From assembly GCA_947177615.1 (NCBI GenBank), contig CAMWUY010000004.1, forward strand, positions 1 through 37,478: a stretch of 37,478 nucleotides of DNA. The letters are read 5' to 3'. Below are positions 4,545-33,253 of this stretch, one piece after another. Position 1 is the first letter of the stretch. Every line of letters starts with the position of its first letter. The notes under the pieces are model-generated. The model was not told where the DNA came from, ran no database searches, and saw only the letters and a program-made list of their open reading frames with translations. The DNA comes from an uncultured Porphyromonadaceae bacterium. GTDB taxonomy: Bacteria > Bacteroidota > Bacteroidia > Bacteroidales > Muribaculaceae. Made by a program: the position numbers and the translations under genes.

Positions 4545-5357
4545 ATGGAGCTACCATTTCCACATATTGAGGAGCATAAGAAATATCCATCTACATTTTT
4601 GATAAATGTAGAGTGGCGTTTACATTTCAACATCAATAATACCGATAGCTCTTATGATAAATTCTACGGATTTATTAAAGACACCTTTGGTCTGGAATTA
4701 AGACGCGAGGACTACAATGCTATGGGGATATTGCCACTGCGATATAGCCAAAGCGAAGACGCTGCGAATATCAAGATATCAAACAAATTTGCAGAATTCA
4801 GCTTTAATTCCAACGGCTATACATCCTTTGGGGATTCTGCAAGGGATATTCTTGTATCGTTCGTACGATTGATATATCAGTGTGAGGGGAGCGTAAATCA
4901 TATCATGTGTAATAAGAAAAATCTTGTGACCATGCAACGCAACTTCGAGTGTGATGAGTCCGAGATATTATCTATCGTCTTCAGTGATTCGCTGATTGAA
5001 GCGCCCTCACAATTGGTGCGTCCCGCCGACTTCACCAGAGACACTGTTCCTTCAACTCACTTCTATACCGTATCTGCCTATGATTTGATAATACAGGCAT
5101 TATATGGGGTGTATGGAAAACCGGGTACTACTGAATATAACGGCATGGCGATGTACGAATATGGAGCGATGCTTGAATCACAATGTGATTGTCCGGTCTC
5201 CACTAACGCAGCCGATGAATGTATCCGACGTATCGATTCGATTAATGATGTCATGTATGATTTTATTCATTGGGCATTATCTCCCCATATATTTAGAATA
5301 ATGGAGACAGAAAACCAGAATGGTGAATCTGAATTCGATGTTATAGAAATTGAGTGA
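4545..5357 (+). CDS. Hypothetical protein, possibly TIGR04255-like
   Basis: Intact 270-aa ORF in operon context; weak overall resemblance to TIGR04255 (VEWRLHFN..., ISNKFAEFSFNSNGYTSFGD), not certain. Confidence 0.7.
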   Translation: MELPFPHIEEHKKYPSTFLINVEWRLHFNINNTDSSYDKFYGFIKDTFGLELRREDYNAMGILPLRYSQSEDAANIKISNKFAEFSFNSNGYTSFGDSARDILVSFVRLIYQCEGSVNHIMCNKKNLVTMQRNFECDESEILSIVFSDSLIEAPSQLVRPADFTRDTVPSTHFYTVSAYDLIIQALYGVYGKPGTTEYNGMAMYEYGAMLESQCDCPVSTNAADECIRRIDSINDVMYDFIHWALSPHIFRIMETENQNGESEFDVIEIE

Positions 5358-5358
5358 A

Positions 5359-5943
5359 ATGAGCAGCATATCATTACAGATAAAAGACTCTTCGACCGGT
5401 TTTCAGTCCGGATGGAAGAAGTATGACGCTATTTCGTCACATTGCTCCGGTGAATATGACACTGTTAAAGTCGGTAATACATTAATGAAAGTTTACCGTA
5501 ACGACAGCGACCACGCAATATTCCTATGGAATAACATCGCCAAGTCACGACAGCACTTGTATCTGAAATCTTTAGACAAACCGGCGGCAACAATATCTTT
5601 AGTTTCCACAAAATGGCCTGTTAAGCGGATTGAATTATTATCTATCGAACAATTGGCCGAATTGAATAAACTCAACTTCGGACTCAATATCTCCCCTGAG
5701 CGCCTTATCTTCGGAGAAGTATCCGACAATCAGACTACTTGTATAGCCCTCGACTTGGGATATGGTATACGCGTACGCATCACAGCCTATTATGGTGACT
5801 TCGACACATATTATCTCTCATTCTTCGAGGGAGACGATATAATCCGTCAGGAGCATTTGGACTTGGACAACACCATTGCCGGCATAAACAACGTATTGAG
5901 AGAATTACATCGCGAGGCTGCTCGTAGGAATGTCACAATCTAA
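5359..5943 (+). CDS. Hypothetical protein
   Basis: Intact ORF; ATG at 5359 one nt after the preceding TGA (track uses TTG at 5350); no family recognised. Confidence 0.65.
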   Translation: MSSISLQIKDSSTGFQSGWKKYDAISSHCSGEYDTVKVGNTLMKVYRNDSDHAIFLWNNIAKSRQHLYLKSLDKPAATISLVSTKWPVKRIELLSIEQLAELNKLNFGLNISPERLIFGEVSDNQTTCIALDLGYGIRVRITAYYGDFDTYYLSFFEGDDIIRQEHLDLDNTIAGINNVLRELHREAARRNVTI

Positions 5944-6742
5944 GAAAATGACTGTACACGATAATCCGGCTTATCCGGTAGAGTTGCTACCCTCCGCGTC
6001 ACACATATATCCCCTGGAGGCTGACTCATTTACAGACACAGACAAAACCATAATGCACCGTCGCAGTGATATTGGATATGAAGAATGTTTCTACAACGGC
6101 GTCATCGACCGGTTACACTTCCGGACTGAATGCTCGTCAGAGATTTTCAAACATCCTTACAACCTCTCTCTAAATCTTTTAGGCGGACAATTCATAGCTG
6201 ACCGACACGCTATATGGCGTCAGACCAAACCGGGTAACGACTATTGGCTCGGTGGCACGGATATCAATCTTTCCGACTATTCCGCTTGTTACTCTCAACA
6301 TAATACGGCATATCCTGACTTCTATTTCAAAGTCTCGGACTTGCACGATAAGCCGATAAAATATCCTCGGACTTTCAACCGACAATCTGAAAGTTGGCCA
6401 TATAAAGCGGTTGTAACCGGATTGCGGATAATCGACCATAAAAGTGGTGATAAGAAGATAAAAGGACAGGTGACTGAAGATGTAAAAGGTGTTTTAAAGC
6501 TGAAGCATCGACCCACTAACCTGAATTACTGGCACTGGCAACTCGAGGCAGCGACTTTGAGAAAGGTAACTGTCGGCAACAAGGAGATAACGATTTTAGA
6601 ACCACTCCTCGAAAAGCAAAAATCCTCTGGGTGGGGTAAAAAATTATTATCGGCACAGCGAGAACACCTCTTGTCAGTAATAATGTTCCAATGTCCCGAC
6701 TTCAACACTATTCCGAAAGAGTTCTATCTTCTTCCGGATTAA
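5930..6742 (+). CDS. Hypothetical protein
   Basis: Intact 270-aa ORF overlapping the previous stop by 14 nt; no family recognised. Confidence 0.65.
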   Translation: MSQSKKMTVHDNPAYPVELLPSASHIYPLEADSFTDTDKTIMHRRSDIGYEECFYNGVIDRLHFRTECSSEIFKHPYNLSLNLLGGQFIADRHAIWRQTKPGNDYWLGGTDINLSDYSACYSQHNTAYPDFYFKVSDLHDKPIKYPRTFNRQSESWPYKAVVTGLRIIDHKSGDKKIKGQVTEDVKGVLKLKHRPTNLNYWHWQLEAATLRKVTVGNKEITILEPLLEKQKSSGWGKKLLSAQREHLLSVIMFQCPDFNTIPKEFYLLPD

Positions 6743-10388: not shown

Positions 10389-11512
10389 ACGGTATGATAC
10401 GGTCTATCCTCAGAAAACTCGGCATAACACATTTTGTCAGACGTAGATTATTGCTTGGACGGATTAATAGAGAGAGAAGAAATGAGAGCAATCTAATAAC
10501 TTCCGGCATTCCATCTTCATACTTTGAACCACTGACCCCGGGAGAACGAAATCAAATCATCGAACTATGGGGAGGAATTGACGAGATTAAAGATATCAAC
10601 TTCCGTGAGTTTGAAATGTTCAAGAGAATGAACGGATTTGATGCCCGCTACCTCACACACGATATTTACCTGCCTGTCATTGCCCGGTTACTTAACGATT
10701 ATCGATACACCACTATCTTTGATGATAAAGGATTAGCCGGATATATTAAACCTACTCACATCAGATTCCCATATTGCTATGCACGCAGGATTAATTCCGA
10801 CTACTATGACAACGAAATGCGGCAAATCCCGCTTGAAAAAGTCCTGGAGTTATGCATACATCAAAATGCAATATTCATTAAACCCTCCAAGAATACATCC
10901 GGTGGTCACGGAGCCAAGCTGATTAGGTTTGGGCAGTACCCTATTTCAGAAAGAGAGCGAATACTGTTGGAAGAGATAAATCGACGAAATTATGACTACG
11001 TCATACAGGAATGCATTAATCAGCATCCTGTGATGGCTCAATTCAATCCGTCTTCTGTCAATACCCTGCGTATTACCACTCTTATGCTAAACGGCAGATA
11101 TTCTCTCTGTTCCGTAATATTGAGATGTGGCAAAGAGGGTTTACACGTTGACAACTGGGGCGCCGGCGGACTTCTGGTTCCGGTGACTTCCGACGGTAAA
11201 GTCACCGAAACCGGACTTGACAACCGTCTGAACCAATATACTTCATCGGGCAAGTGCGTATTTGAGAAATGTCAGATACCTCAACTTCCTGAGATACTTA
11301 AATTAGTGGAACGCTGTCATAGGGAGGACTTCGCAATTTGCAAACTCATAGGTTGGGATATTACAATCGACAGTACCGGAAATCCGGTTATAATCGAGCT
11401 CAACAGCTCCCAGCCGGGTGTTATAGGAGAACAACTTCTCCAACAACCGATATTCGGAGACAGGACGCAGGAAGTTATCGAATATTGCAAATCTAAAATA
11501 TTCTCATATTGA
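10376..11512 (+). CDS. Sugar-transfer-associated ATP-grasp family protein
   Basis: FIKPSKNTSGGHGAKLIRFG, QECINQHPVMAQFNPSSVNTLRITTLML, GWDITIDSTGNPVIIELNSSQPG. Confidence 0.75.
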   Translation: MGKVNGMIRSILRKLGITHFVRRRLLLGRINRERRNESNLITSGIPSSYFEPLTPGERNQIIELWGGIDEIKDINFREFEMFKRMNGFDARYLTHDIYLPVIARLLNDYRYTTIFDDKGLAGYIKPTHIRFPYCYARRINSDYYDNEMRQIPLEKVLELCIHQNAIFIKPSKNTSGGHGAKLIRFGQYPISERERILLEEINRRNYDYVIQECINQHPVMAQFNPSSVNTLRITTLMLNGRYSLCSVILRCGKEGLHVDNWGAGGLLVPVTSDGKVTETGLDNRLNQYTSSGKCVFEKCQIPQLPEILKLVERCHREDFAICKLIGWDITIDSTGNPVIIELNSSQPGVIGEQLLQQPIFGDRTQEVIEYCKSKIFSY

Positions 11513-13047
11513 TGGCTGAAAGCAGCTCCAATAAGAAAATAGCCAAGAACAGTATTTTTCTGTATATGCGGTCATTCCTGATAATGGCCGTCAGCCTATA
11601 TTCGTCCCGAATCATTCTTGAAGCTATCGGAATCGCCGATTATGGCCTATACGGAGCTATTGGCAGTCTTGTCGCAATGTTCGTTATGATAAATGGAGTT
11701 CTGGCCGCCGGTACGAGTCGTTTTATGACATACGAATTAGGCCGGGGAAATCAGGAGCGACTTGCCAAGACATTCAGTGCCTCCTTTATTCTTCATGTAG
11801 GATTGGCTGTCATTCTTTTGATTTTACTCGAGACGATAGGATTGTGGTTTGTCAATCATAAGCTTAACATCCCGGAGGGAAGAACCTTTGCAGCTAACGT
11901 AGTTTATCAGCTTTCTGTATTCACATCCATTTTCTCGCTGACTCAGGTGCCATATACAGCAAGTATCATAGCGCATGAGAAGATGCATGTCTACGCATAC
12001 GTCGGTATTGCTGAGGTCACATTCAAATTGGCACTTATATTCCTTCTGCTCTACTGCCCGTTTGCAGACAATCTTATCGCATACGCTATTATATTGGCTA
12101 TATGGACATTAGGGCTTCAGATATGGTATCGTTATTATTGCCATCGTCATTTCAAAGAGAGTCATCTTAAGATAGTACATGACGGGGATATTTATAAAAA
12201 TATGCTCTCGTATTCAGCCTGGGACTTTATTGGTCAATTTTGCGCAACCGGTAATAGTCAGGGGCTGAACATACTGCTAAATATCTTTTTTGGCGTCACT
12301 ATCAATGCTGCACGTGCTGTGGCATATCAGGTGGAAAATGCGGTCACTCAGTTCTCGACTAACTTCCTGACCGCTGTCAATCCACAGATTACCAAAGCAT
12401 ACGCACAAACGGACCATGACAGGTTTATTATGCTTATAAAGGAGTCATCCAAGTTTGCATTCTTTCTACTGTTTATGATTTCCATGCCGGCATTTATCGA
12501 AGCTCCTTATCTACTGAAGATTTGGCTTGCTAAGGTTCCGGATACCTCGGTATCATTTCTGAGGTTTGCCTTATTCTTTGGAGTTTTCAGAATAATCACA
12601 CGTCCCGTCATCACCGGCACACATGCAACCGGCAATATAAAATACCTCAACCTGACAAGCGGTCTATATTCCGCACTGACATTCCTTTCGGTAATATACA
12701 TTGCCTACAAGCTTGGTGCCCCATATTGGATTTGCTTTATCGTCAATTTCATTAACGGTATTATCGTTACAATTTTTGAAATTAGATCCTTACATCGTAA
12801 TGTCCCGTTTAACATACGTAAATTTGTACCCGAAATAATCATAAAGCCTTGGGTGATTTGCTTGTTAGCCACTATCCCTGCGGTCATAATCCATCATTTC
12901 ATGCACGAATCATTTCTGAAGCTATGTGCCGTGTCCCTCTGTTCAATCGTGTGCATCGGGAGCGCTACATATCTGTTCGGATTGAGCAAATCACAGAGAG
13001 AATGGGTTAAATCGTTAATCGGTTCACAATTCAATAGAAAAGGATAG
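11512..13047 (+). CDS. Polysaccharide flippase / MOP superfamily (Wzx-like)
   Basis: ~510-aa polytopic protein starting SSSNKKIAKNSIFLYMRSFLIMAVSLYSSRIILEAIGIADYGLYGAIGSLVAMF; ATG 11512 overlaps the upstream TGA. Confidence 0.88.
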   Translation: MAESSSNKKIAKNSIFLYMRSFLIMAVSLYSSRIILEAIGIADYGLYGAIGSLVAMFVMINGVLAAGTSRFMTYELGRGNQERLAKTFSASFILHVGLAVILLILLETIGLWFVNHKLNIPEGRTFAANVVYQLSVFTSIFSLTQVPYTASIIAHEKMHVYAYVGIAEVTFKLALIFLLLYCPFADNLIAYAIILAIWTLGLQIWYRYYCHRHFKESHLKIVHDGDIYKNMLSYSAWDFIGQFCATGNSQGLNILLNIFFGVTINAARAVAYQVENAVTQFSTNFLTAVNPQITKAYAQTDHDRFIMLIKESSKFAFFLLFMISMPAFIEAPYLLKIWLAKVPDTSVSFLRFALFFGVFRIITRPVITGTHATGNIKYLNLTSGLYSALTFLSVIYIAYKLGAPYWICFIVNFINGIIVTIFEIRSLHRNVPFNIRKFVPEIIIKPWVICLLATIPAVIIHHFMHESFLKLCAVSLCSIVCIGSATYLFGLSKSQREWVKSLIGSQFNRKG

Positions 13048-13058
13048 TATAAACCACT

Positions 13059-13895
13059 ATGCACACGATAAAATTAAGCAACGATATCGAGATGCCCGCT
13101 ATTATAATGTCTACCAACTGGATGGACTATCCGACAATGAAAAAAGTCGTGACAGCAGGGCTACAAACCGGTTATCGCGCTTTCGATACTGCCAGAGACT
13201 ACGGCAACGAACACATAGTAGGCAAAGTACTCAAAGAGTGTCTCGAAGAGCAAGGACTAAAGCGTGAAGATATATTTATCACGACCAAAATCGGGAATAG
13301 CCAGCAACGCGTGGGAAATATCGACGAGCAGATAGACATATCGCTGAAAAATCTTAAAACAGATTATGTCGACTGCTGGATGATGCATTGGCCATATCCC
13401 AACTATTACATAGAGACATACCACAAAATGGAGAAAGTCTATAACAGTGGTAAAGCACGTGCTATCGGAATGGCTAACTATCACGTCCGCCACTTCAACA
13501 AACTTTTGGAGGCAGGAATTGAGATTGAACCACATTGTGTTCAATTTGAACATCATCCTATGCGTACGGCCGACGATATTGTTCAATTTTGTAATGACAG
13601 AAAGATTACAATTCAGGCTTATTCCCCCTTGTGCCGTATGATTGAGCCTATCAGGAATTCCGAGATTTTACATGCTATAGCAAAACGCTACGGTAAGACT
13701 GTCGGCCAAGTTATTCTTCGATGGCACATTCAGCATGGTTCAGTGCCCTGTTTTAAATCAGTCAACCCTGAGAGGCTCAAAGAGAATTTTGATATCTGGG
13801 ACTTCAAACTTACCGATGAAGAGATGAAAGAGATATCCTCTATGGATTGTGACTATAAATATCATCTGGAGTCAGCAAGTTGTCCGGGTTTCTAA
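13059..13895 (+). CDS. Aldo/keto reductase
   Basis: GYRAFDTARDYGNEHIVGKVLKE, TDYVDCWMMHWPYPN, GKARAIGMANYHVRHFNKLLE, VGQVILRWHIQHGSVPCFKSVNPERLKEN. Confidence 0.92.
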   Translation: MHTIKLSNDIEMPAIIMSTNWMDYPTMKKVVTAGLQTGYRAFDTARDYGNEHIVGKVLKECLEEQGLKREDIFITTKIGNSQQRVGNIDEQIDISLKNLKTDYVDCWMMHWPYPNYYIETYHKMEKVYNSGKARAIGMANYHVRHFNKLLEAGIEIEPHCVQFEHHPMRTADDIVQFCNDRKITIQAYSPLCRMIEPIRNSEILHAIAKRYGKTVGQVILRWHIQHGSVPCFKSVNPERLKENFDIWDFKLTDEEMKEISSMDCDYKYHLESASCPGF

Positions 13896-13908
13896 ATTCG
13901 GTAAACAT

Positions 13909-14934
13909 ATGATAAACATAAAAACTCTATCAAAAAAAATAATACGGAAATCTCTGTATTATCTATTGTTATCACCGGTTTTAAAAAGGACGAACTGGTA
14001 CAGGAATATGTTTGTAGAAAACATATATCCGAGCAATTCCTGGTATCGACAAAATCCGGAGCGAAACTTTGATTTGGTCGTTTTGGGGAGTAGTAGTGCC
14101 AAATGGGCATTTGACTTTACAAATTCGGGAATTAAAGCTATGAACTGGGCTCAGCAACCACAGACACTCATTGAAGACTATAATCTGTTCAGAAATTTTC
14201 ATAGTATCTTGCGTAAAGGAGGGGTCGTTTTAATTACAGTCATGCCGTTTACCGGGCTAAATAAGCAGACAGGATTATACGATGCTTTGAAATATCTACA
14301 TGTTGATGCCCATGAACCAATTCAGCCACATTTGTATCGAAAAGCGGCTCTTATCTCACAGATACCCCTCCTGTTAGGGTTGCCGGCTCTCAAAGCATTG
14401 GTAAAATATTGTATCGGTAAGGATGCTCCTTTAAAGTCCAACAAAAATGCCATGGTCAATGAAAATCACATGGATGAAGCACAGTTAATTCAGAATGCAC
14501 TTAATTATATCAATGGTTGGAAGATGCAATTCGGTATAAAAGATTTAAGTAATCCATTGACACCCGGCAATCTCAAGGGGCGTGAATACAGAATTAATTT
14601 AATGCGGACTATTATTGACTTCTGTAAGGAGCGAAACTATTGTCCGATATTTGTAATACCTCCAATGACTGAATATTTAAAGCGGCATTTGACACCTGAA
14701 TTTGAAGAGCTTTATATCTACAGCTTTTTGAGAGAGGTCAATAGAGATATTCCCACATTGGATTACAGTCGAAACGAGACATTCCGGAATCCGAATCTCT
14801 ATTTCAACAGCTTTTTTCTAAATAACAGAGGGAGAAAACTTTTCACACATCAGGTTCTTTCTGACATAGCATCTTTGGATAGCTCAATAATTAGTCCCTC
14901 TCAAAGGGAGTCACTAATCGCTCAAACACATTGA
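13909..14934 (+). CDS. SGNH-like (DltD/AlgX-like) hypothetical protein, probable polysaccharide modification
   Basis: FDLVVLGSSSAKWAFD near the N-terminus and FNSFFLNNRGRKLFTHQVL near the C-terminus; start at ATG 13909, after the AKR stop, preferred over track start 13849. Confidence 0.6.
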   Translation: MINIKTLSKKIIRKSLYYLLLSPVLKRTNWYRNMFVENIYPSNSWYRQNPERNFDLVVLGSSSAKWAFDFTNSGIKAMNWAQQPQTLIEDYNLFRNFHSILRKGGVVLITVMPFTGLNKQTGLYDALKYLHVDAHEPIQPHLYRKAALISQIPLLLGLPALKALVKYCIGKDAPLKSNKNAMVNENHMDEAQLIQNALNYINGWKMQFGIKDLSNPLTPGNLKGREYRINLMRTIIDFCKERNYCPIFVIPPMTEYLKRHLTPEFEELYIYSFLREVNRDIPTLDYSRNETFRNPNLYFNSFFLNNRGRKLFTHQVLSDIASLDSSIISPSQRESLIAQTH

Positions 14935-16821: not shown

Positions 16822-17928
16822 GTGCCTACATTCTTACAATCCTTATACTGCCTGCTATATTACCTGTTTGTCGGGCTCATCGGTTACAACGGTAATATGA
16901 ACCGCAGAATCAGAAGGGAGCCGAATCCCAATCTGACTCTGTTTATGATTCTTGCTACCTTTATATACGTTCTGACATATTTTATCGACACGGATTACTT
17001 CCATTATGAGAGAATAATAGATGAACTTTCACAACGTATTGAGGTAACTCATATTGAGGAGATATACACATGGATAGGGCAGGCTGTATTTTACAACTAT
17101 ATTTTATTTCGAATTGTAGTTTGGGGTAGCGCCCTATTTCTGTTCTGTAAGACCGTTAAAATTTCGCATACCAATCTCAACCATGCTCTATACACACTGT
17201 TCATTATATTCATAGGTATATTTGCATACGCGCGTGCAACGTTGGGGATGGCATTTGCATATTGTGGTCTTGCACTAATCGTTCAAAATCCTCCGGGGAT
17301 TAAGAAAATATTCGGATTCGGTCTCTTGCTCTGCTCGATTATCTTTCATAATTCGATGGCATTGATTATAGGAGTCGCTATCATATCCCTTATAATGCCG
17401 TTGAATAAAAAGACACTTCTTATTTCATTGATCGGCACCGTTATCGGTTCCGTGGCAATCACCGGATTATTCATATCAATTTTGACAGACAATCAATTAG
17501 GGGATGCTTATGTGATGTCGAAATTATCTACTTATACCTCGGGTAATATGGAGGATGACCCGACCACTATGTTAGGTAAAATAAGATATTTTCTGGCTGC
17601 CGCTGCATATTATTTGGGAGTTTTCTTCTGCATACAGAGTATATTTAAACTTAAAGCCAAAGGTATGAAAGTGTCAAAACTACAGGAGGTCTTTACAAAA
17701 TGTGCCCTGTTAATCATATTGATATCCACCCTACTGCTGTTCTTACCTTTAGGCGTAAATGTGTTCGCATACCGAATCAGATATATGGCGATGATTCCAA
17801 TATGTATATGTCTGACTTCAATGACAGATAAGGATCTGGTATCATTTAAAAGATATAGGCTGTGTATGGGTGTCGGAGCCGCCGCCATGCTAATGGCTCT
17901 GTTGTACAATGTTAAAGATACTTTATGA
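16822..17928 (+). CDS. EpsG/Wzy-like polysaccharide polymerase
   Basis: Polytopic protein, GTG start; IIFIGIFAYARATLGMAFAYCGLALI and IIFHNSMALIIG resemble the EpsG family. Confidence 0.75.
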   Translation: MPTFLQSLYCLLYYLFVGLIGYNGNMNRRIRREPNPNLTLFMILATFIYVLTYFIDTDYFHYERIIDELSQRIEVTHIEEIYTWIGQAVFYNYILFRIVVWGSALFLFCKTVKISHTNLNHALYTLFIIFIGIFAYARATLGMAFAYCGLALIVQNPPGIKKIFGFGLLLCSIIFHNSMALIIGVAIISLIMPLNKKTLLISLIGTVIGSVAITGLFISILTDNQLGDAYVMSKLSTYTSGNMEDDPTTMLGKIRYFLAAAAYYLGVFFCIQSIFKLKAKGMKVSKLQEVFTKCALLIILISTLLLFLPLGVNVFAYRIRYMAMIPICICLTSMTDKDLVSFKRYRLCMGVGAAAMLMALLYNVKDTL

Positions 17929-24102: not shown

Positions 24103-24789
24103 TCAGAGACTGTATGTCAGCTCTTTGTCATTCGGGTCGGGTGTGGTCATTATCTTGAATAAGACACTCTTGTCGAGAATCTCATCTTGCATAGCGCCAA
24201 GCAACGGCCTCATGACGGGCAAATCCTTGATGGCACAAGACCAGTCATTCTTACCGTACAACAGACTTTTCAGAATATAATTCTTATAGTCCATGTCGTT
24301 GGCCTCCTCCTGCGCTACAAGGTTGGATTTGATGGATGCAAGTCCGGCCTCATCACATATTCTGCAAGCTATATGAAACTCTATTGAATAGTCGCTCAAC
24401 ACGTAGTCCTTACATAATGACATCATCGTATGCAGTTTAAAAAAGGTAAACAGATGCTGACTTATGGCTTTCTTTATGTTATTGCCACTCAGACTCGTCT
24501 TCAACTCCAAAAAGATAATGCGCTTGTCCGCACCATTATTATAGAAAATAACACCATCGGAGTCACTGTCCCGAAGATGACTGCTACGGTCGGTCGTTAT
24601 ATGTGTCATCCCTTTATAAAAAGGATTTTTCAGAATGCCGACATCTCCGGTCGGTATCGTAATCTGTACCTTCTTCAGATCTGCATTTCTTGAAGTCTCG
24701 ATAACGGGCACCGACCCGCACTTTACATCGCAATGACCGGCGTGCTTGTCGAATATCTGCTGAAGTTGTTCAATCGTCCGCATCCTCAA
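24103..24789 (-). CDS. Putative PD-(D/E)XK nuclease-fold protein, partner of the ATPase
   Basis: DSDGVIFYNNGADKRIIFLELKTSLSGNNIKKAISQHL has a D...ExK arrangement followed by a helix; 20-nt overlap with the ATPase gene. Confidence 0.5.
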   Translation of the reverse strand: MRMRTIEQLQQIFDKHAGHCDVKCGSVPVIETSRNADLKKVQITIPTGDVGILKNPFYKGMTHITTDRSSHLRDSDSDGVIFYNNGADKRIIFLELKTSLSGNNIKKAISQHLFTFFKLHTMMSLCKDYVLSDYSIEFHIACRICDEAGLASIKSNLVAQEEANDMDYKNYILKSLLYGKNDWSCAIKDLPVMRPLLGAMQDEILDKSVLFKIMTTPDPNDKELTYSL

Positions 24790-26062
24790 AAAGCTCCTCT
24801 AATTTTGATTTGATTCGCAGACTGTCGTCCAATGCCTTATGAAATGATGAGAACGGTACCCCCCGGTCTATATTTTGCTTGATAACAACAGAACGGTTAT
24901 CCTCCGTTCTTTTCAACAGATATGCCGATACTTTAGAGGGGTCGAGCACAAGATTGGGATTGTCATGCAAATACTCACACAACGCGACATATTGTGAGTA
25001 ATCGTTCTTCTCTTTCAAATCGTCTCTCAACTCATATTTCAACACCAACTCATTTATACGTCTCAGAAAGTAGTCACTGTGGGTTGTGACCTGCACACAG
25101 CTCCCCGCCTGAATCATGCACGACAATATGTCAGCCATCATCCTTTGCTTCAATGGATGCAGATGAGCCTCCGGCTCATCTATCATCAGCGACATTGTCG
25201 ATATATCGGTATTATTTACCAGAAACTCCAGCGATGCCAGTTCTCTGACGGAGGCAGCCGCCGCACTCAACGGCATTTCCTCTCCATTGGTCGAATATAT
25301 ATACTGACCTTCACGCCTCTCGACATGTCCGTCCAGCACGTCGCGTATCAATGCTGTCAATTCATCAGGCAGTTTCAACTTATTAGGCTTAGCCATCAAC
25401 ATGGTCTGTATCGCTTTCTGAAACTCGGCATACATACCTGTTATCGGAATAACTGACTCCGTAAGCATCATGCCTCGTGACGGAGGTAATACGTATGACT
25501 CCGTCAGATCTGTAAACTTACCGAATATTTCCTGGATTAAATAGAAACGGAACAGGTATGCGAATGGGGATTCTTCAGCCATACCATTGGCATCCTTAAT
25601 CTTATACGACAGACCCGGAACCTGAATATTGATATAGGTCTCCACATTATCACCGATTTCCACTATTTCATCCGCGACCTTGCATATTATCATATCCGGA
25701 ACAGAGGCAGGCAACTTAATCGTCACTTTTCCATTCAGGTTGTTAGCCTTGACCATATAGCTGAGCCATGTGACGGCATCTTCCGACAACCATTTCTCAA
25801 ATTCGGATTTGGATATTCCCAACTCCAAGGGACCATCCTTAAGATCCTTATGAATGCGGTCAATATCAAATTCTTGCGAATTGAAATAACCCGATATTCT
25901 TTTGGTATCGAGCAATACTGAGAATATATAATGACAGATGATGGATATATAACTCTTGCCGAGTCCCGATTCTCCGGAAAAAATCATGAAGTTGTTGAGA
26001 ATAATCTCATCAGATTCGTCTATCATTCCCAACTTGTGGATTTTAATACTGACCGGTTTCAT
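24770..26062 (-). CDS. ABC/SMC-like AAA ATPase (AAA_15/OLD-type)
   Basis: Walker A FSGESGLGKSYIS, signature-like LSAAAASVRELASLEFLV, Walker B MSLMIDEPEAHLHPLKQ, H-loop VTTHSDYFLRRIN; Met13 (26062) is a likely start, track ORF extends to 26098. Confidence 0.88.
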   Translation of the reverse strand: MKPVSIKIHKLGMIDESDEIILNNFMIFSGESGLGKSYISIICHYIFSVLLDTKRISGYFNSQEFDIDRIHKDLKDGPLELGISKSEFEKWLSEDAVTWLSYMVKANNLNGKVTIKLPASVPDMIICKVADEIVEIGDNVETYINIQVPGLSYKIKDANGMAEESPFAYLFRFYLIQEIFGKFTDLTESYVLPPSRGMMLTESVIPITGMYAEFQKAIQTMLMAKPNKLKLPDELTALIRDVLDGHVERREGQYIYSTNGEEMPLSAAAASVRELASLEFLVNNTDISTMSLMIDEPEAHLHPLKQRMMADILSCMIQAGSCVQVTTHSDYFLRRINELVLKYELRDDLKEKNDYSQYVALCEYLHDNPNLVLDPSKVSAYLLKRTEDNRSVVIKQNIDRGVPFSSFHKALDDSLRIKSKLEELFEDADD

Positions 26063-26136
26063 ATTATAACATATATGTGATGTGGATATACATTGCAAAA
26101 ATAATAATTATAATTTATATTAAGAGCGCGTTCAGA

Positions 26137-26165: not shown

Positions 26166-26190
26166 AAATAAACTAAATTATTTGAAGCAG

Positions 26191-28308
26191 ATGATGACTA
26201 CTAACATATATGAGGATAAGATAGCACTATGTTTCCGGGAGATTATACTCTGCCGGAAGGTTCTCAACACAAAGAGGGCGGACGAGGTAAGCGCGCGATT
26301 GGTCGCGATTTACATTCTGCTCAGAACTGATGACATCACCAAGTTATGGTGTCATTCATTTCCCAAAGAGAGCATTGAGCGCGTACTGGCTGACGAAGCC
26401 AAGAATAAATATAATGCCGGGTTCCGACAGGTGCGTGACAAAATCGGTGCTCATTATCAATCGGCGGATGCCACCAAATCCGCCGATATATTAGCAAGTT
26501 CACAATTATTTTACAGCTTCGACCTCACTGACATCGACAACCTTGTCGATGAACTTATGGCAGCGCGTGACCTCCTCGAAAATACAGAACACACCTATGA
26601 GGATGTCGTGTCCATTCAGGATTTTGCCGAAATACTCCGAATTCTGGATGAGATTCATGATGGTGACAAAGCCTGTTTAACCACCTCGTCCATCGAGCTG
26701 TTCGGGATAAACCGCGGCGGACTGATTTCATGTTCCAAAGAGCAGAGAAAGGGACAGTTCCTGCGCAGTATCGAGCTGATGGTCAGCTATGCCAAAGCGC
26801 TTGCTGAAGGGAGTTACCGCCAGCCTGAAGTCAAGCGTATGTTCACACGTCTTTGGGCATCACTCATATACAGTTACCACGACAACCTCTTCACCCGCAC
26901 GGACATCTCACCGAAAGCATCTCAATACGAAGAAGGGTTTGACCGAATGTATATGAAACTTGTATCCTCCCGTGATGACCCATCCAAGCTCGAAAATATA
27001 TTCACGGAGTTTGACAATCTGCACCATACTTCCGAGTTCTTCCGTCGCAACAGAGACGTAAGAGACCACGCATGCGCACACCTCGATGAGAAAAGTAGTG
27101 TCAGCGATATTGACTCTCAGCTCAACGGCCTTCCGATAGATGAGCTGTATCGGCAGTATGACAATATGTTGAACCTGTTCAACTACCTTTGCCGCAACAT
27201 TTTCTGTCTAACATTCCTGAGCATTGAACCGCGCTCTCCTCTCCCCGGCGCAAGATTTGAAACCATTGTCGGCAATCGGGACTTTTATGGCCGTGAACCC
27301 GTTGAATGTGAACAACCGCAAAATATGTCTCCGGATGAAATCTTGCGGTCTCTGCGTAAGAACGACTCCAATCGTGAATTGGCCGAAACTCTGTTGATTG
27401 AAAGATTACGTTCACAAAACGATGAGCTTTTCTACCCTATGATTGAGGCGATAACACACCGTTTTGAGGGGATGAATACGATTGAGTGTGATTTATGCCC
27501 AATCTTTATTGCGCTGCACAATGCAAGGAGATGTTTCCCGGAACGGTTGCAGGACTCCCTGCTCATACTCCTGACCAATAATAACATATCTGATTACCTC
27601 AGACTATATATCCTCCGCGAGATAGCGTCATTGGCCCGAAGAGCCCGGGATTATGATTTATGGTCAGACCTGACACTATGGATGCAAAGCGAATACTATC
27701 CGATACAGGCTTTCGGCTTTCTTGCAGGACTGCACTTTCTGATGTCTGACAGCACGCTGAATCCTACACCCAAGACTAAACCCCTTGCCGTCAATACGGA
27801 TTATGCCAATCTGCTTGATGATGTCACCGATCCTATCAAAAAACTCGGCATCATACTTCTGCTGAATCAGCACTGGCGTTTCGGAGATGAATATCAGCAT
27901 ATAAGAAACAAAGAGACTGATTATGACAGTTGGCTGAAAGATAGCTTAAACAAAGACATCAGCAAGTATGCCGACTATATCCATTTGAACAATCAGGAGA
28001 TACGTGACTTATGGAGTAAGTATGATAAAGGAGGGTTCTATTTATGCCTGCTTCATAACCTTATCATATCTGAAAAGGAGAGGAACGCTGACCCGAACAT
28101 GTTTCTTGAGCTGTGGAGATGGAACGCTTTCATACGCTATCGGCCGGACAAATATGAGGCTCTGAGTGTTGCACTTATGGACGAACTGAACGGAAATATT
28201 GATGTAGCCCGCGACTTGTTCATACAAATTGCAGCCGACAATCCGGCTGATGCCTGCGTTTATCAGATGCTCCGCGACTTCAACCGGAGAAACAAACCGA
28301 ACCGCTGA
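26191..28308 (+). CDS. Large protein with two HEPN-like RDx3AH motifs and a helical C-terminal region; putative defence protein
   Basis: FRQVRDKIGAHYQ (26434-26454) and NRDVRDHACAHLDEK (27061-27081), same Rx5H spacing. Track start 26182 is TTG; first ATG is 26191. Confidence 0.6.
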   Translation: MMTTNIYEDKIALCFREIILCRKVLNTKRADEVSARLVAIYILLRTDDITKLWCHSFPKESIERVLADEAKNKYNAGFRQVRDKIGAHYQSADATKSADILASSQLFYSFDLTDIDNLVDELMAARDLLENTEHTYEDVVSIQDFAEILRILDEIHDGDKACLTTSSIELFGINRGGLISCSKEQRKGQFLRSIELMVSYAKALAEGSYRQPEVKRMFTRLWASLIYSYHDNLFTRTDISPKASQYEEGFDRMYMKLVSSRDDPSKLENIFTEFDNLHHTSEFFRRNRDVRDHACAHLDEKSSVSDIDSQLNGLPIDELYRQYDNMLNLFNYLCRNIFCLTFLSIEPRSPLPGARFETIVGNRDFYGREPVECEQPQNMSPDEILRSLRKNDSNRELAETLLIERLRSQNDELFYPMIEAITHRFEGMNTIECDLCPIFIALHNARRCFPERLQDSLLILLTNNNISDYLRLYILREIASLARRARDYDLWSDLTLWMQSEYYPIQAFGFLAGLHFLMSDSTLNPTPKTKPLAVNTDYANLLDDVTDPIKKLGIILLLNQHWRFGDEYQHIRNKETDYDSWLKDSLNKDISKYADYIHLNNQEIRDLWSKYDKGGFYLCLLHNLIISEKERNADPNMFLELWRWNAFIRYRPDKYEALSVALMDELNGNIDVARDLFIQIAADNPADACVYQMLRDFNRRNKPNR

Positions 28309-28371
28309 CTATCTGTGTGAAATGAACAGATGCTGCTTTTTCTGCAACAAATAACATTAGTGTACTGAATT

Positions 28372-28403
28372 TTTGGGAGTTCGGTGATTTTGTATTAATT
28401 TTG
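28372..28403 (+). promoter_or_regulatory. Bacteroidetes-type promoter for the polysaccharide export genes (TTTG-N20-TAATTTTG)
   Basis: TTTG 28372-28375, 20-bp spacer, TAATTTTG 28396-28403, upstream of ATG 28495. Confidence 0.7.
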
Positions 28404-28494
28404 TGATTATGGATGGGTTAGGACCTTTATCTAATTTTTTTGTATTAATAAAAGTCGGGATGGCGCAAGCCCTTGACTAACAGATATTGAAACG

Positions 28495-28641
28495 ATGAAG
28501 TTTACTCTTAAGGCAAAGGTGTGGATGACTGCGGCGTTTGTGGCCGTGGCGATGACTGCATGGGCGATGACCGATGATGAGGTTATATCCGTGCACAGTC
28601 GGCTGCCGGCAAGTCCAATCAGGATATCGGTAAGGAACTGA
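28495..28641 (+). other. 48-codon ORF encoding the signal-peptide region of the SLBB protein, out of frame with the SLBB body
   Basis: MKFTLKAKVWMTAAFVAVAMTAWAMTDDEVISVHSRLPASPIRISVRN*; its TGA (28639-28641) overlaps ATG 28641. Confidence 0.8.
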
Positions 28642-30905
28642 TGGCTCGCGGTGTGCCGTCAAGTCAGATACAGCGTATACGTACAAAGTATAATAACGGA
28701 GGATCCAACACAGTAGGGACTATGGTGGAGGCACAATCGGCAGCCATAGTAGATAATGGACGTGATATGCCTGTGGAGACTGCCATTGTAAATACCGAAA
28801 GTGTCGTTGATGTTTTCACTCCCGATGAGGGCAAAGCTGCTCGTGAGGTATATGGACATGATCTTTTCAACTCCCGTAATCTTAATTTTGAGCCGAATAA
28901 AAATATGGCTACTCCCCGTGACTATCGTCTCGGACCCGGCGATGAGGTGATCATCGACGTATGGGGCGCGGCCGAGGAGCATTTGCGTGAGACAATCTCA
29001 CCTGAAGGAAGTATTATGATAGCCCGTCTCGGTCCGGTTCATCTCAATGGCAAGACTATCGAGGAGGCAAATACATATATCAAAAACCTTTTCGCCCGCA
29101 AATATGCCGGTGTCAGCAGTGACCAGACCGATATCAGTGTCAATCTCGGTGATCTGCGTTCGATCCAGATTGACATCATGGGTGAGGTGGATACTCCGGG
29201 AACATTCCGGATGTCACCGTTCTCCAGTGTCTTTCATGCGCTATATAGTGCCGGTGGTATCAACAATATCGGTTCGATGCGTAACATTACCGTGCTGCGC
29301 AACGGTAAGCGTGTGGCCAATGTCGATATCTACGACTATCTCTTCAAAGGCAAACAGACCGGCAATATCCGTCTGCAGGAGGGGGATGTCATAATAGTGC
29401 CCCCTTACGATCAGATAGTCAATATTTCGGGCAATGTGAAGCGACCGATGTATTATGAGATCAAGCCGGGTGAGACTATCGCCTCCCTTCTGGAGTATGC
29501 CGGCGGTTTCTCAGGAGATGCCTATTCGGGTATGGTACGCGTGTCGCGTCAGAATGGTGAGGATAATGACCTTTACAATATTGACAAGGGTGAGTTCGCG
29601 AGTTATCGTCTGCAGGATGGTGACGTGGTGACGGTCGGTAATGTCCTGGATCGCTACAGCAATCGTGTGGAGCTCAAGGGTGCGGTCAACCGTCCCGGCC
29701 TGTATGCGCTGGGCAATAAAGCATCAACGCTTAGCGAGATGATCAGCCTGGCTGACGGACTGACTGATGACGCATACAGGGGTCGTGCCTTGATATATCG
29801 TCAGGGCCCTGACATGACACTGCAAGTCATTCCGGTAGACCTCAATGCCGTACTCGGAGGATATGCCGAGGATATAGTGCTGCAGAAGAATGATGTGATC
29901 GAGATCGCCAGTGTGCAGCTCATAGAGGAGAAGGGTGACTTCCTGATAGATGGCTGGGTGGCAAATCCGGGTGATTATTCATACATGGACAATACATCGG
30001 TGCAGGATCTGATATTGCGTGCCGGCGGTCTGTTGGATGGAGCCTCGACAGTGCGTTGCGAGATCTCCCGCCGTATCGATGATCCGACAGCGCTTACTGA
30101 CTCACAACTGTTGGGCGAATTTTATACCGTAACCCTCGATGGCGGACTTGATACACGCAACCGTGCATCGGAGTTTATTTTGAAACCATACGATAGGGTG
30201 GTGGTGCGTAAATCTCCGCGCTATGTAGAGCAGAAACTTGTAACAGTCGATGGTCAGATCGTCTTCCCGGGAGCTTATACCATCACTAAGCGCAACGAGC
30301 GCCTCTCTGACCTCGTAGAGCGAGCCGGGGGCACGGCTGAAGGTGCATATCTCAAGGGTGCATATCTCAAACGGAGGATGACGGATGATGAATATGAGGA
30401 ACGACAGAATGTGATACGTCTGGCGATGTATAATCAGAATACCCAGGACTCCATTTCGACAACTAAATTAAGTATCGACAGGACGTACAGCGTCGGTATA
30501 GACCTTGTAGCCGCGTTGGACAATCCGGGGAGCTCACAGGATGTAGTGCTGCAGCCCGGTGATGCACTGTTTATTCCGGAGCAACAGAGCACAGTCAAGG
30601 TGTCGGGTGATGTGATGTATCCGAACTCGGTGGTATTTACCGAGGGTAAGAAGGCTTCCTATTATATAGATCAGGCCGGTGGATATGGTCTGACAGCCAA
30701 GAAGAACAGATCGTATATCATCTATATGAATGGTATGGTCGCTAAGGTGAATAGAAAAACCCCGATAGAGCCGGGATCACATATTATCGTGCCCTCCAAG
30801 TCTATGGAAAAGAAGAATGTATGGGAGACTATACTGCCTATGATCTCCGGTATAGGCTCGGTAGCTACAATGGCGGCCGCCGTCGCTTCGCTCTTCCGAA
30901 AATAA
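28641..30905 (+). CDS. SLBB-domain polysaccharide export outer-membrane protein (Wza-like); in-frame ORF lacks a signal peptide
   Basis: DYRLGPGDEVIIDVWGAAEEHLRETISPEGSIMIARLGPVHLNGKTIEEA, repeated GDVITVPP/SLBB motifs (VNISGNVKRPMYYEIKPGETIASLLEYAGGF, VELKGAVNRPGLYALG). Confidence 0.9.
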   Translation: MARGVPSSQIQRIRTKYNNGGSNTVGTMVEAQSAAIVDNGRDMPVETAIVNTESVVDVFTPDEGKAAREVYGHDLFNSRNLNFEPNKNMATPRDYRLGPGDEVIIDVWGAAEEHLRETISPEGSIMIARLGPVHLNGKTIEEANTYIKNLFARKYAGVSSDQTDISVNLGDLRSIQIDIMGEVDTPGTFRMSPFSSVFHALYSAGGINNIGSMRNITVLRNGKRVANVDIYDYLFKGKQTGNIRLQEGDVIIVPPYDQIVNISGNVKRPMYYEIKPGETIASLLEYAGGFSGDAYSGMVRVSRQNGEDNDLYNIDKGEFASYRLQDGDVVTVGNVLDRYSNRVELKGAVNRPGLYALGNKASTLSEMISLADGLTDDAYRGRALIYRQGPDMTLQVIPVDLNAVLGGYAEDIVLQKNDVIEIASVQLIEEKGDFLIDGWVANPGDYSYMDNTSVQDLILRAGGLLDGASTVRCEISRRIDDPTALTDSQLLGEFYTVTLDGGLDTRNRASEFILKPYDRVVVRKSPRYVEQKLVTVDGQIVFPGAYTITKRNERLSDLVERAGGTAEGAYLKGAYLKRRMTDDEYEERQNVIRLAMYNQNTQDSISTTKLSIDRTYSVGIDLVAALDNPGSSQDVVLQPGDALFIPEQQSTVKVSGDVMYPNSVVFTEGKKASYYIDQAGGYGLTAKKNRSYIIYMNGMVAKVNRKTPIEPGSHIIVPSKSMEKKNVWETILPMISGIGSVATMAAAVASLFRK

Positions 30906-30983: not shown

Positions 30984-32108
30984 ATGTCAGAGATAGATAT
31001 AGAAGTCAGAGACGACAATTCCGATAACGGGAAAAGTAATGAGATAGACCTCGTGGCAATTGCTAAAAAGCTATGGAGCGAGCGTAAACGTATCATAATA
31101 TGGAGTGTATGCGGTGCTGTGATAGGTCTTATCGTGGCCTTCAGCATTCCGCGTGAATATACTACCAATGTCAAGTTGGTGCCGGAGTCTGGAGATAGTC
31201 CTTCCGGAAATGCACTCGGCGGATTGGCTGCAATGGCGGGGATCAATTTGGGCGCTGATGGCGATGATGCGCTTTCTCCAAACTTGTATCCGGATGTAAT
31301 AAGCTCGGTGCCGTTTGAACTATCGCTGCTTGAAATACCTCTGACTGATCAATCGGGAAATGAGAAATTTACTCTCGAGCAGTATATTACGGAGGATGTG
31401 CGTAGCCCGTGGTGGAGTGCCGTCATGTCAGCTCCCGGTGCGATATTGTCGTTATTCAGGTCAGGTAATGAGGATAAAGAGACTGAGGTAAGCACAGGTG
31501 ATGATAACGGACCGCTTCGTATCACAATGGAGCAGGCGGGGATGATAAGCTTTCTGCGTGGTGCCGTGGTCTCGGATGTGGACAAGAAGACCGGGGTGAT
31601 CTCCATATCGGTGACGATGCAGGATCCGGTTGTTTCAGCGACATTGGCAGATACAGTTGCTCATCGCCTCCAGGAGTTTATTACAGGTTATCGTACACAG
31701 AAGGCGCGGCAGGATCTGGAGTTTGTCGAGAAGCTTAACAATGAGGCGAAAGATAAATATTACGAAGCGCAGCAGAAGTATGCCAACTATCTCGACAGTC
31801 ACCAAGGATTGGTATTATTTTCGGCTCAGACTATGCGTGATCGTCTGGAAAACGAGGCTACATTAGCATTTAATGTTTATAATCAGACGGCTCAGAAACT
31901 GGAACTGGCGAAGGCAAAGGTGCAGGAGCAGACACCTGTGTACGCTACTATAGAGCCTCCTACAGTGCCTATCATCCCCTCAAAGCCTCGCAAGGTCGTA
32001 TTACTCTTCGGTTTCACCTTTCTCGGTTTTGCAGCATCTTGTGCGTGGATTATCTTTGGGCAACCTTTGATCAATGCATTCCGCAAGGATGAGGGAATGG
32101 AGAGTTAA
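30984..32108 (+). CDS. Wzz/GumC-like chain-length determinant (no kinase domain)
   Basis: IDLVAIAKKLWSERKRIIIWSVCGAVIGLIVAFSIPREYTTNVKLVPE; C-terminal TVPIIPSKPRKVVLLFGFTFLGF. Confidence 0.88.
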   Translation: MSEIDIEVRDDNSDNGKSNEIDLVAIAKKLWSERKRIIIWSVCGAVIGLIVAFSIPREYTTNVKLVPESGDSPSGNALGGLAAMAGINLGADGDDALSPNLYPDVISSVPFELSLLEIPLTDQSGNEKFTLEQYITEDVRSPWWSAVMSAPGAILSLFRSGNEDKETEVSTGDDNGPLRITMEQAGMISFLRGAVVSDVDKKTGVISISVTMQDPVVSATLADTVAHRLQEFITGYRTQKARQDLEFVEKLNNEAKDKYYEAQQKYANYLDSHQGLVLFSAQTMRDRLENEATLAFNVYNQTAQKLELAKAKVQEQTPVYATIEPPTVPIIPSKPRKVVLLFGFTFLGFAASCAWIIFGQPLINAFRKDEGMES

Positions 32109-32254: not shown

Positions 32255-33253
32255 ATGGAATTGAAAAGGATATTATCAATAGTGACGATAGTGATAGCCG
32301 GTGCCACAACGCCGGCTGTCGCTCAATCGGACCTTAATGATATTCTATCCGGAGTCCTTGACGTAATGGACAAGGCCGCGGCACCGCTCAATAGCGGTGA
32401 TGATATTGACGACAGCATGTTGGCCTCCGTGGCGGAGAGTATGTCAGTAAGCGGGACTCTCGACTATCTGTATGAAGTATATAACACACCCACGAAGTCA
32501 TCATATACACATTACAGAACACAGAATTATGGCGGTATGAGATACAATTCGCGACATCAGAATAATAACGGCACCTCCGGCGGTCAGCGTAATTATGCCT
32601 ACCTGATACCGTCCACAGCGGTAAGTCCTGTTGTCGGGCGTGTGACTTCGCGCTATGGATACCGTCCGCAATTCGGGCGTATGCATCATGGGACGGATAT
32701 AGCGGTCAATATCGGTGACACGATTCGGGCCGCAATAGATGGTGTCGTGCTTCGTGTATCTAATGATGCTCACGGCTATGGGGTATTCGTGTGTCTGCAG
32801 CATAACGGTGGACTTGAGACTCGGTATGCGCACCTCAGTGGAGTTCTGGTGGCACCGGGGATGCGTGTGTCCGCCGGTGACCCTATCGCGTTAGGTGGTA
32901 ATACCGGTAACTCTACAGGCCCGCATCTTCACTTTGAGACTCGTGTTGATGGTAAGGCTGTTGACCTCAGCTATATGTTCAATTTCTCGCAACCGGTATC
33001 GACTTATCCTAAGGCCAAATCCTCGGCTTACAGCTATGATGCTGCAGATATCGGTATTATCGCCGGTACGGGCTCGACAGCTGTCTCAGGTACGAAGAGT
33101 GTGTCCGCACGCTCCACATACGTAGTCAAAGTTGGGGATACGATAGAAACAATAGCGCGAAAGAACGGTCTAAGCGTAATTAAGCTATGCAATCTCAATA
33201 TGCTGACCCTAACAGATCAGCTCCTCCCCGGCCGAATGCTTAAGCTGCGCTAA
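32255..33253 (+). CDS. M23 family metallopeptidase with C-terminal LysM domain
   Basis: MHHGTDIAVNIGDTIRAAIDGVVLRV, GLETRYAHLSG, GNSTGPHLHFETR; LysM YVVKVGDTIETIARKNGLSVIKLCNLN. Confidence 0.93.
   Translation: MELKRILSIVTIVIAGATTPAVAQSDLNDILSGVLDVMDKAAAPLNSGDDIDDSMLASVAESMSVSGTLDYLYEVYNTPTKSSYTHYRTQNYGGMRYNSRHQNNNGTSGGQRNYAYLIPSTAVSPVVGRVTSRYGYRPQFGRMHHGTDIAVNIGDTIRAAIDGVVLRVSNDAHGYGVFVCLQHNGGLETRYAHLSGVLVAPGMRVSAGDPIALGGNTGNSTGPHLHFETRVDGKAVDLSYMFNFSQPVSTYPKAKSSAYSYDAADIGIIAGTGSTAVSGTKSVSARSTYVVKVGDTIETIARKNGLSVIKLCNLNMLTLTDQLLPGRMLKLR

Follow-up and report, generated by a model that had tools for sequence, protein, structure and literature searches.

Split reading frames at the start of a Wza-like SLBB export gene in an uncultured Muribaculaceae genome

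In a 37,478-nucleotide stretch of DNA from an uncultured Muribaculaceae bacterium (the window), the signal peptide of a Wza-like polysaccharide export protein is encoded in a different reading frame from its mature SLBB domain. This split arrangement is seen directly in the nucleotide sequence. The explanation that we favour, and regard as probable, is a recent out-of-frame deletion of 7 nt in an otherwise intact export gene, which would leave the exporter non-functional in the sampled genotype. From this arrangement and from comparison with relatives we infer how the deletion arose, that the exporter no longer works and that its polysaccharide has been lost. Such an allele would be an ordinary loss of function and would involve no new mechanism.

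The split exporter gene and its surroundings

The reading frame that begins at ATG 28495 (28495-28641, forward strand) is truncated to 48 amino acids, reads MKFTLKAKVWMTAAFVAVAMTAWAMTDDEVISVHSRLPASPIRISVRN, and ends at a TGA stop at 28639-28641. It encodes an intact N-terminal signal peptide, MKFTLKAKVWMTAAFVAVAMTAWA; MTDDEVIS comes next, and after it an unrelated, out-of-frame tail. In 53 relatives the homologue of this leader is the N-terminus of the fused protein. The SLBB frame, which differs from that of the leader by 2 (mod 3), is open from 28581 to 30905 and reads IRAQSAAGKSNQDIGKELMARGV. Its first part (28581-28640, forward strand), YIRAQSAAGKSNQDIGKEL, continues the N-terminal domain and has no start codon. 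The stop of the leader overlaps ATG 28641 (TGATG), from which an open reading frame of 754 amino acids extends to 30905 on the forward strand. Its product would begin MARGVPSSQIQRIR and lacks a hydrophobic segment at the N-terminus. A preliminary description of this DNA had located the signal peptide and the stop at these same positions, and had proposed that the SLBB protein would start at ATG 28641 without an export signal; we agree on both points. The open reading frame from ATG 28641 should not be annotated as a complete protein.

The assignment to the Wza family is based on a Poly_export domain (Pfam PF02563, E=1.7e-18; 67 bits, cut-off 28), on SLBB matches to PF10531 in five stretches and to PF22461 in four, and on Wza structures as the best sequence matches in the PDB. 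Immediately downstream lies a Wzz-family chain-length gene (30984-32108, forward strand; PF02706, E=2.6e-9), the probable partner of the exporter, followed by an M23/LysM gene (32255-33253). Poly_export domain, SLBB domains and a neighbouring chain-length or copolymerase gene are thus all present, as in other OPX proteins, whereas the N-terminal secretion signal in the same frame, found in all 53 relatives, is missing in the window. Because the signal lies outside the SLBB frame, we classify the exporter as a broken rather than an intact OPX member. Compared with Wza from E. coli, the exporter of the relatives is longer (about 800 amino acids), with five SLBB matches; judged by eye, the relatives also differ from the Wza family in that their signal is not of the lipoprotein type.

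Upstream of the exporter lies a polysaccharide-type cluster with glycosyltransferases, a pyruvyl transferase, an ATP-grasp protein and an acyltransferase. Four further reading frames of the cluster on the forward strand (4545-6742, 11509-13047, 13849-14934 and 16822-17928) have no Pfam or NCBIfam match, and may hide the flippase and the polymerase. In the interval that separates the glycosyltransferase cluster from the exporter, two overlapping reading frames of 228 and 442 amino acids, the latter with an AAA_15 ATPase domain, occupy 24103-26098 on the reverse strand. The pair resembles the candidate anti-phage systems PD-T4-4 and PDC-M47 (the ATPase with E=3e-30 and 9e-22, its partner with E=2e-4). 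Divergent from it, and just 5' of the exporter, is a reading frame of 708 amino acids (26182-28308, forward strand) with no Pfam, NCBIfam or PADLOC match.

A putative Bacteroidota-type promoter element, TATTAATTTTGT, of the TATTAATTTTG type, is located upstream of the leader at 28393-28404 (forward strand); it was recognized by eye, and similar elements, again by eye, occur upstream of several relatives. The strong promoter that had been proposed here was not confirmed by a sigma-70 scan, which does not cover Bacteroidota promoters. The same region contains an exact 12-nt direct repeat, TTTTGTATTAAT, with copies at 28388-28399 and 28438-28449 (forward strand), 50 nt apart, which is possibly a duplicated promoter element.

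Comparison with intact relatives and the deletion junction

We read the N-termini of distinct loci obtained by searching genomes or taken from named genome contigs, mostly of Muribaculaceae-type MAGs. In all 53 distinct relatives in which the motif TDxxV-x-x-[YF]-[IV] could be recognized, it stands in frame behind a hydrophobic segment, and V and Y/F are always exactly two residues apart. Three loci fall outside this set: one reads MSDQQVIDYI, with S for T in the same register, one is interrupted by the end of its contig, and one is a distant relative belonging to another family; eleven fetched loci gave no open reading frame that passed the filter. The proposal that the second frame encodes the usual N-terminal segment of SLBB proteins is supported by this comparison, since in every one of the 53 the N-terminus with the signal and the SLBB part form one protein. 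Orthologues sharing the split arrangement, which together with a separate functional secretion signal would have overturned the preliminary description, did not appear among these relatives. Within the genus, the gene was found in 68 of 111 genomes at E<=1e-100 (that of the window and 67 others), with no internal stops. Viral contigs searched for DNA of the same species yielded nothing.

In the window the V codon runs almost directly into the Y-I codons, so that the sequence is a net 7 nt shorter than in the relatives. As these keep two residues between V and Y/F, and the window almost none, the lesion involves more than a single base: the out-of-frame position of the signal peptide had been described correctly, its attribution to a 1-nt frameshift had not. 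Likewise, a break between the frames does exist, but the invariant spacing places its junction at about 28581-28590 (forward strand), slightly upstream of the 28588-28596 given before. The letters at the break are those expected if 7 nt had been lost between a pair of TAT triplets. In L003, which at 78% protein identity is the closest relative, TAT does recur at that 7-nt spacing. We take an L003-like sequence as the probable ancestor at this site, its codons being reconstructed from other species, and the TAT microhomology fits slipped mispairing.

Slipped mispairing at the TAT microhomology would thus probably have removed 7 nt from the N-terminal coding region. Translation from the native start would then yield a dead-end peptide of 48 amino acids bearing the signal sequence. 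The remaining 754 amino acids would be made only by reinitiation at ATG 28641, and the product would stay in the cytoplasm, from which a non-functional exporter is predicted. Of the options raised at the outset, a null allele is the best supported. The split in the window and the in-frame fusion in all 53 relatives both speak for it, and the exporter is probably off.

Outside the break the gene shows no sign of decay. The SLBB reading frame aligns with the relatives over residues 1-754, with up to 78% identity. Changes on the branch leading to the window, counted with two outgroups, are distributed over codon positions 1/2/3 as 59/42/159 (of 260) and 53/40/137 (of 230), and those on the branch of the intact sister L003 as 53/43/121 (of 217) and 52/40/146 (of 238). 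Because changes on both branches fall mostly on third positions, the break is recent, and selection has thus preserved the coding sequence throughout almost the whole time since the gene separated from that of L003.

The main rival to a loss-of-function deletion is a misassembly or a minority allele: the gene would be intact in the population, and the 7 nt would have been dropped from the consensus or lost in a faulty join, for example between co-occurring strains. The lack of downstream decay and the intactness of every relative are both compatible with such an artefact, and the source genome is a 2.2-Mb assembly in 213 contigs that is 82% complete, the relatives compared being mostly MAGs as well. 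However, base-calling errors in short reads do not typically take the form of a 7-nt deletion at a microhomology. In addition, we surveyed about 0.8 Mb of the genome of the window for frameshifts with the proteins of two relatives, which gave 127 and 84 orthologous matches (211 protein-to-DNA comparisons) over 145 kb and 98 kb of alignment (about 240 kb). The method detected the exporter frameshift with both relatives, and these comparisons confirmed none outside this gene. Two candidates in the genome of the window (L119 and L140) and one in another genome (G020) proved to be over-extended starts of open reading frames. Indels are thus not widespread in this assembly, which, together with the size of the loss, favours a real allele. 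Of the error proposed in the preliminary description, the pure sequencing variant has become less likely; an artefact of assembly or consensus in general we consider possible, though clearly less probable than a genuine deletion.

The stop-start overlap and the possibility of regulation

The direct TGATG overlap has a layout that permits termination-reinitiation, and the downstream reading frame is fully intact. Coupling at this site, or ribosomal frameshifting, could in principle yield a working and possibly regulatory exporter from a functional split gene. A reinitiated product would, however, lack the signal peptide, and the gene is unsplit in all 53 relatives. Moreover, 16 of these 53 intact relatives carry the same letters, as [CT]TG ATG encoding an in-frame Leu-Met, which argues that TGATG was not selected for coupling and excludes an evolved reinitiation site. 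Most simply, the overlap would be a coincidence of conserved codons older than the break, although it may permit some reinitiation. Between 28560 and 28645 there is no slippery heptamer of the form X XXY YYZ, for which reason we reject programmed -1 ribosomal frameshifting in the overlap. Reinitiation or frameshifting, as suggested earlier, is therefore disfavoured, and we hold a functional split gene to be very unlikely.

Surface polysaccharide loci of Bacteroidales are well known for phase variation, and the deletion could accordingly represent one state of a reversible on-off switch for export. However, there are no runs of four or more identical bases between 28560 and 28645, and the break itself contains no tandem repeat. 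Inverted repeats in the promoter and leader region (28300-28760) have arms of 8-10 nt, a length expected by chance, and none longer than 10 nt; arms suitable for an invertible promoter of the capsule-locus type were not found in this interval. Furthermore, lost unique sequence is not simply restored unless an intact copy is available for recombination, and the genome sequence searched yielded no second copy of the exporter gene. Reversible phase variation thus seems highly improbable. We give equally little credence to the idea that this species maintains the split for regulation, with the exporter made only when ribosomes bypass the stop of the leader, or that the allele coexists with intact ones in the population as a bet-hedging polymorphism of export.

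A second exporter and the meaning of the loss

The broken gene is the only exporter of this long type in the genome sequence searched. A second Poly_export gene, L099, is present on another contig (C7) of the same genome and has an intact signal of the lipoprotein type, MKLNKVLLALGLGLLLTSCKV; the start of the gene that follows it resembles, by eye, a chain-length or copolymerase protein. Probably, then, one route of polysaccharide export has been lost and another kept.

The literature on capsule export in Muribaculaceae and on frameshifts in SLBB genes yielded nothing specific. The inactivation of a capsule-type gene by a small deletion is a common kind of event. Klebsiella pneumoniae in the mouse gut is reported to lose capsule operon genes through IS insertions or mutations (PMC12077207). 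Those losses resemble the present case in that a gene for a surface polysaccharide is disrupted during life in the gut; they differ in that the window comes from another phylum and shows a short deletion instead of an IS element. If the deletion is real, a lineage of gut Bacteroidales has recently lost one route of surface polysaccharide export while keeping another, which would bear on selection by phages and by the immune system in the gut.
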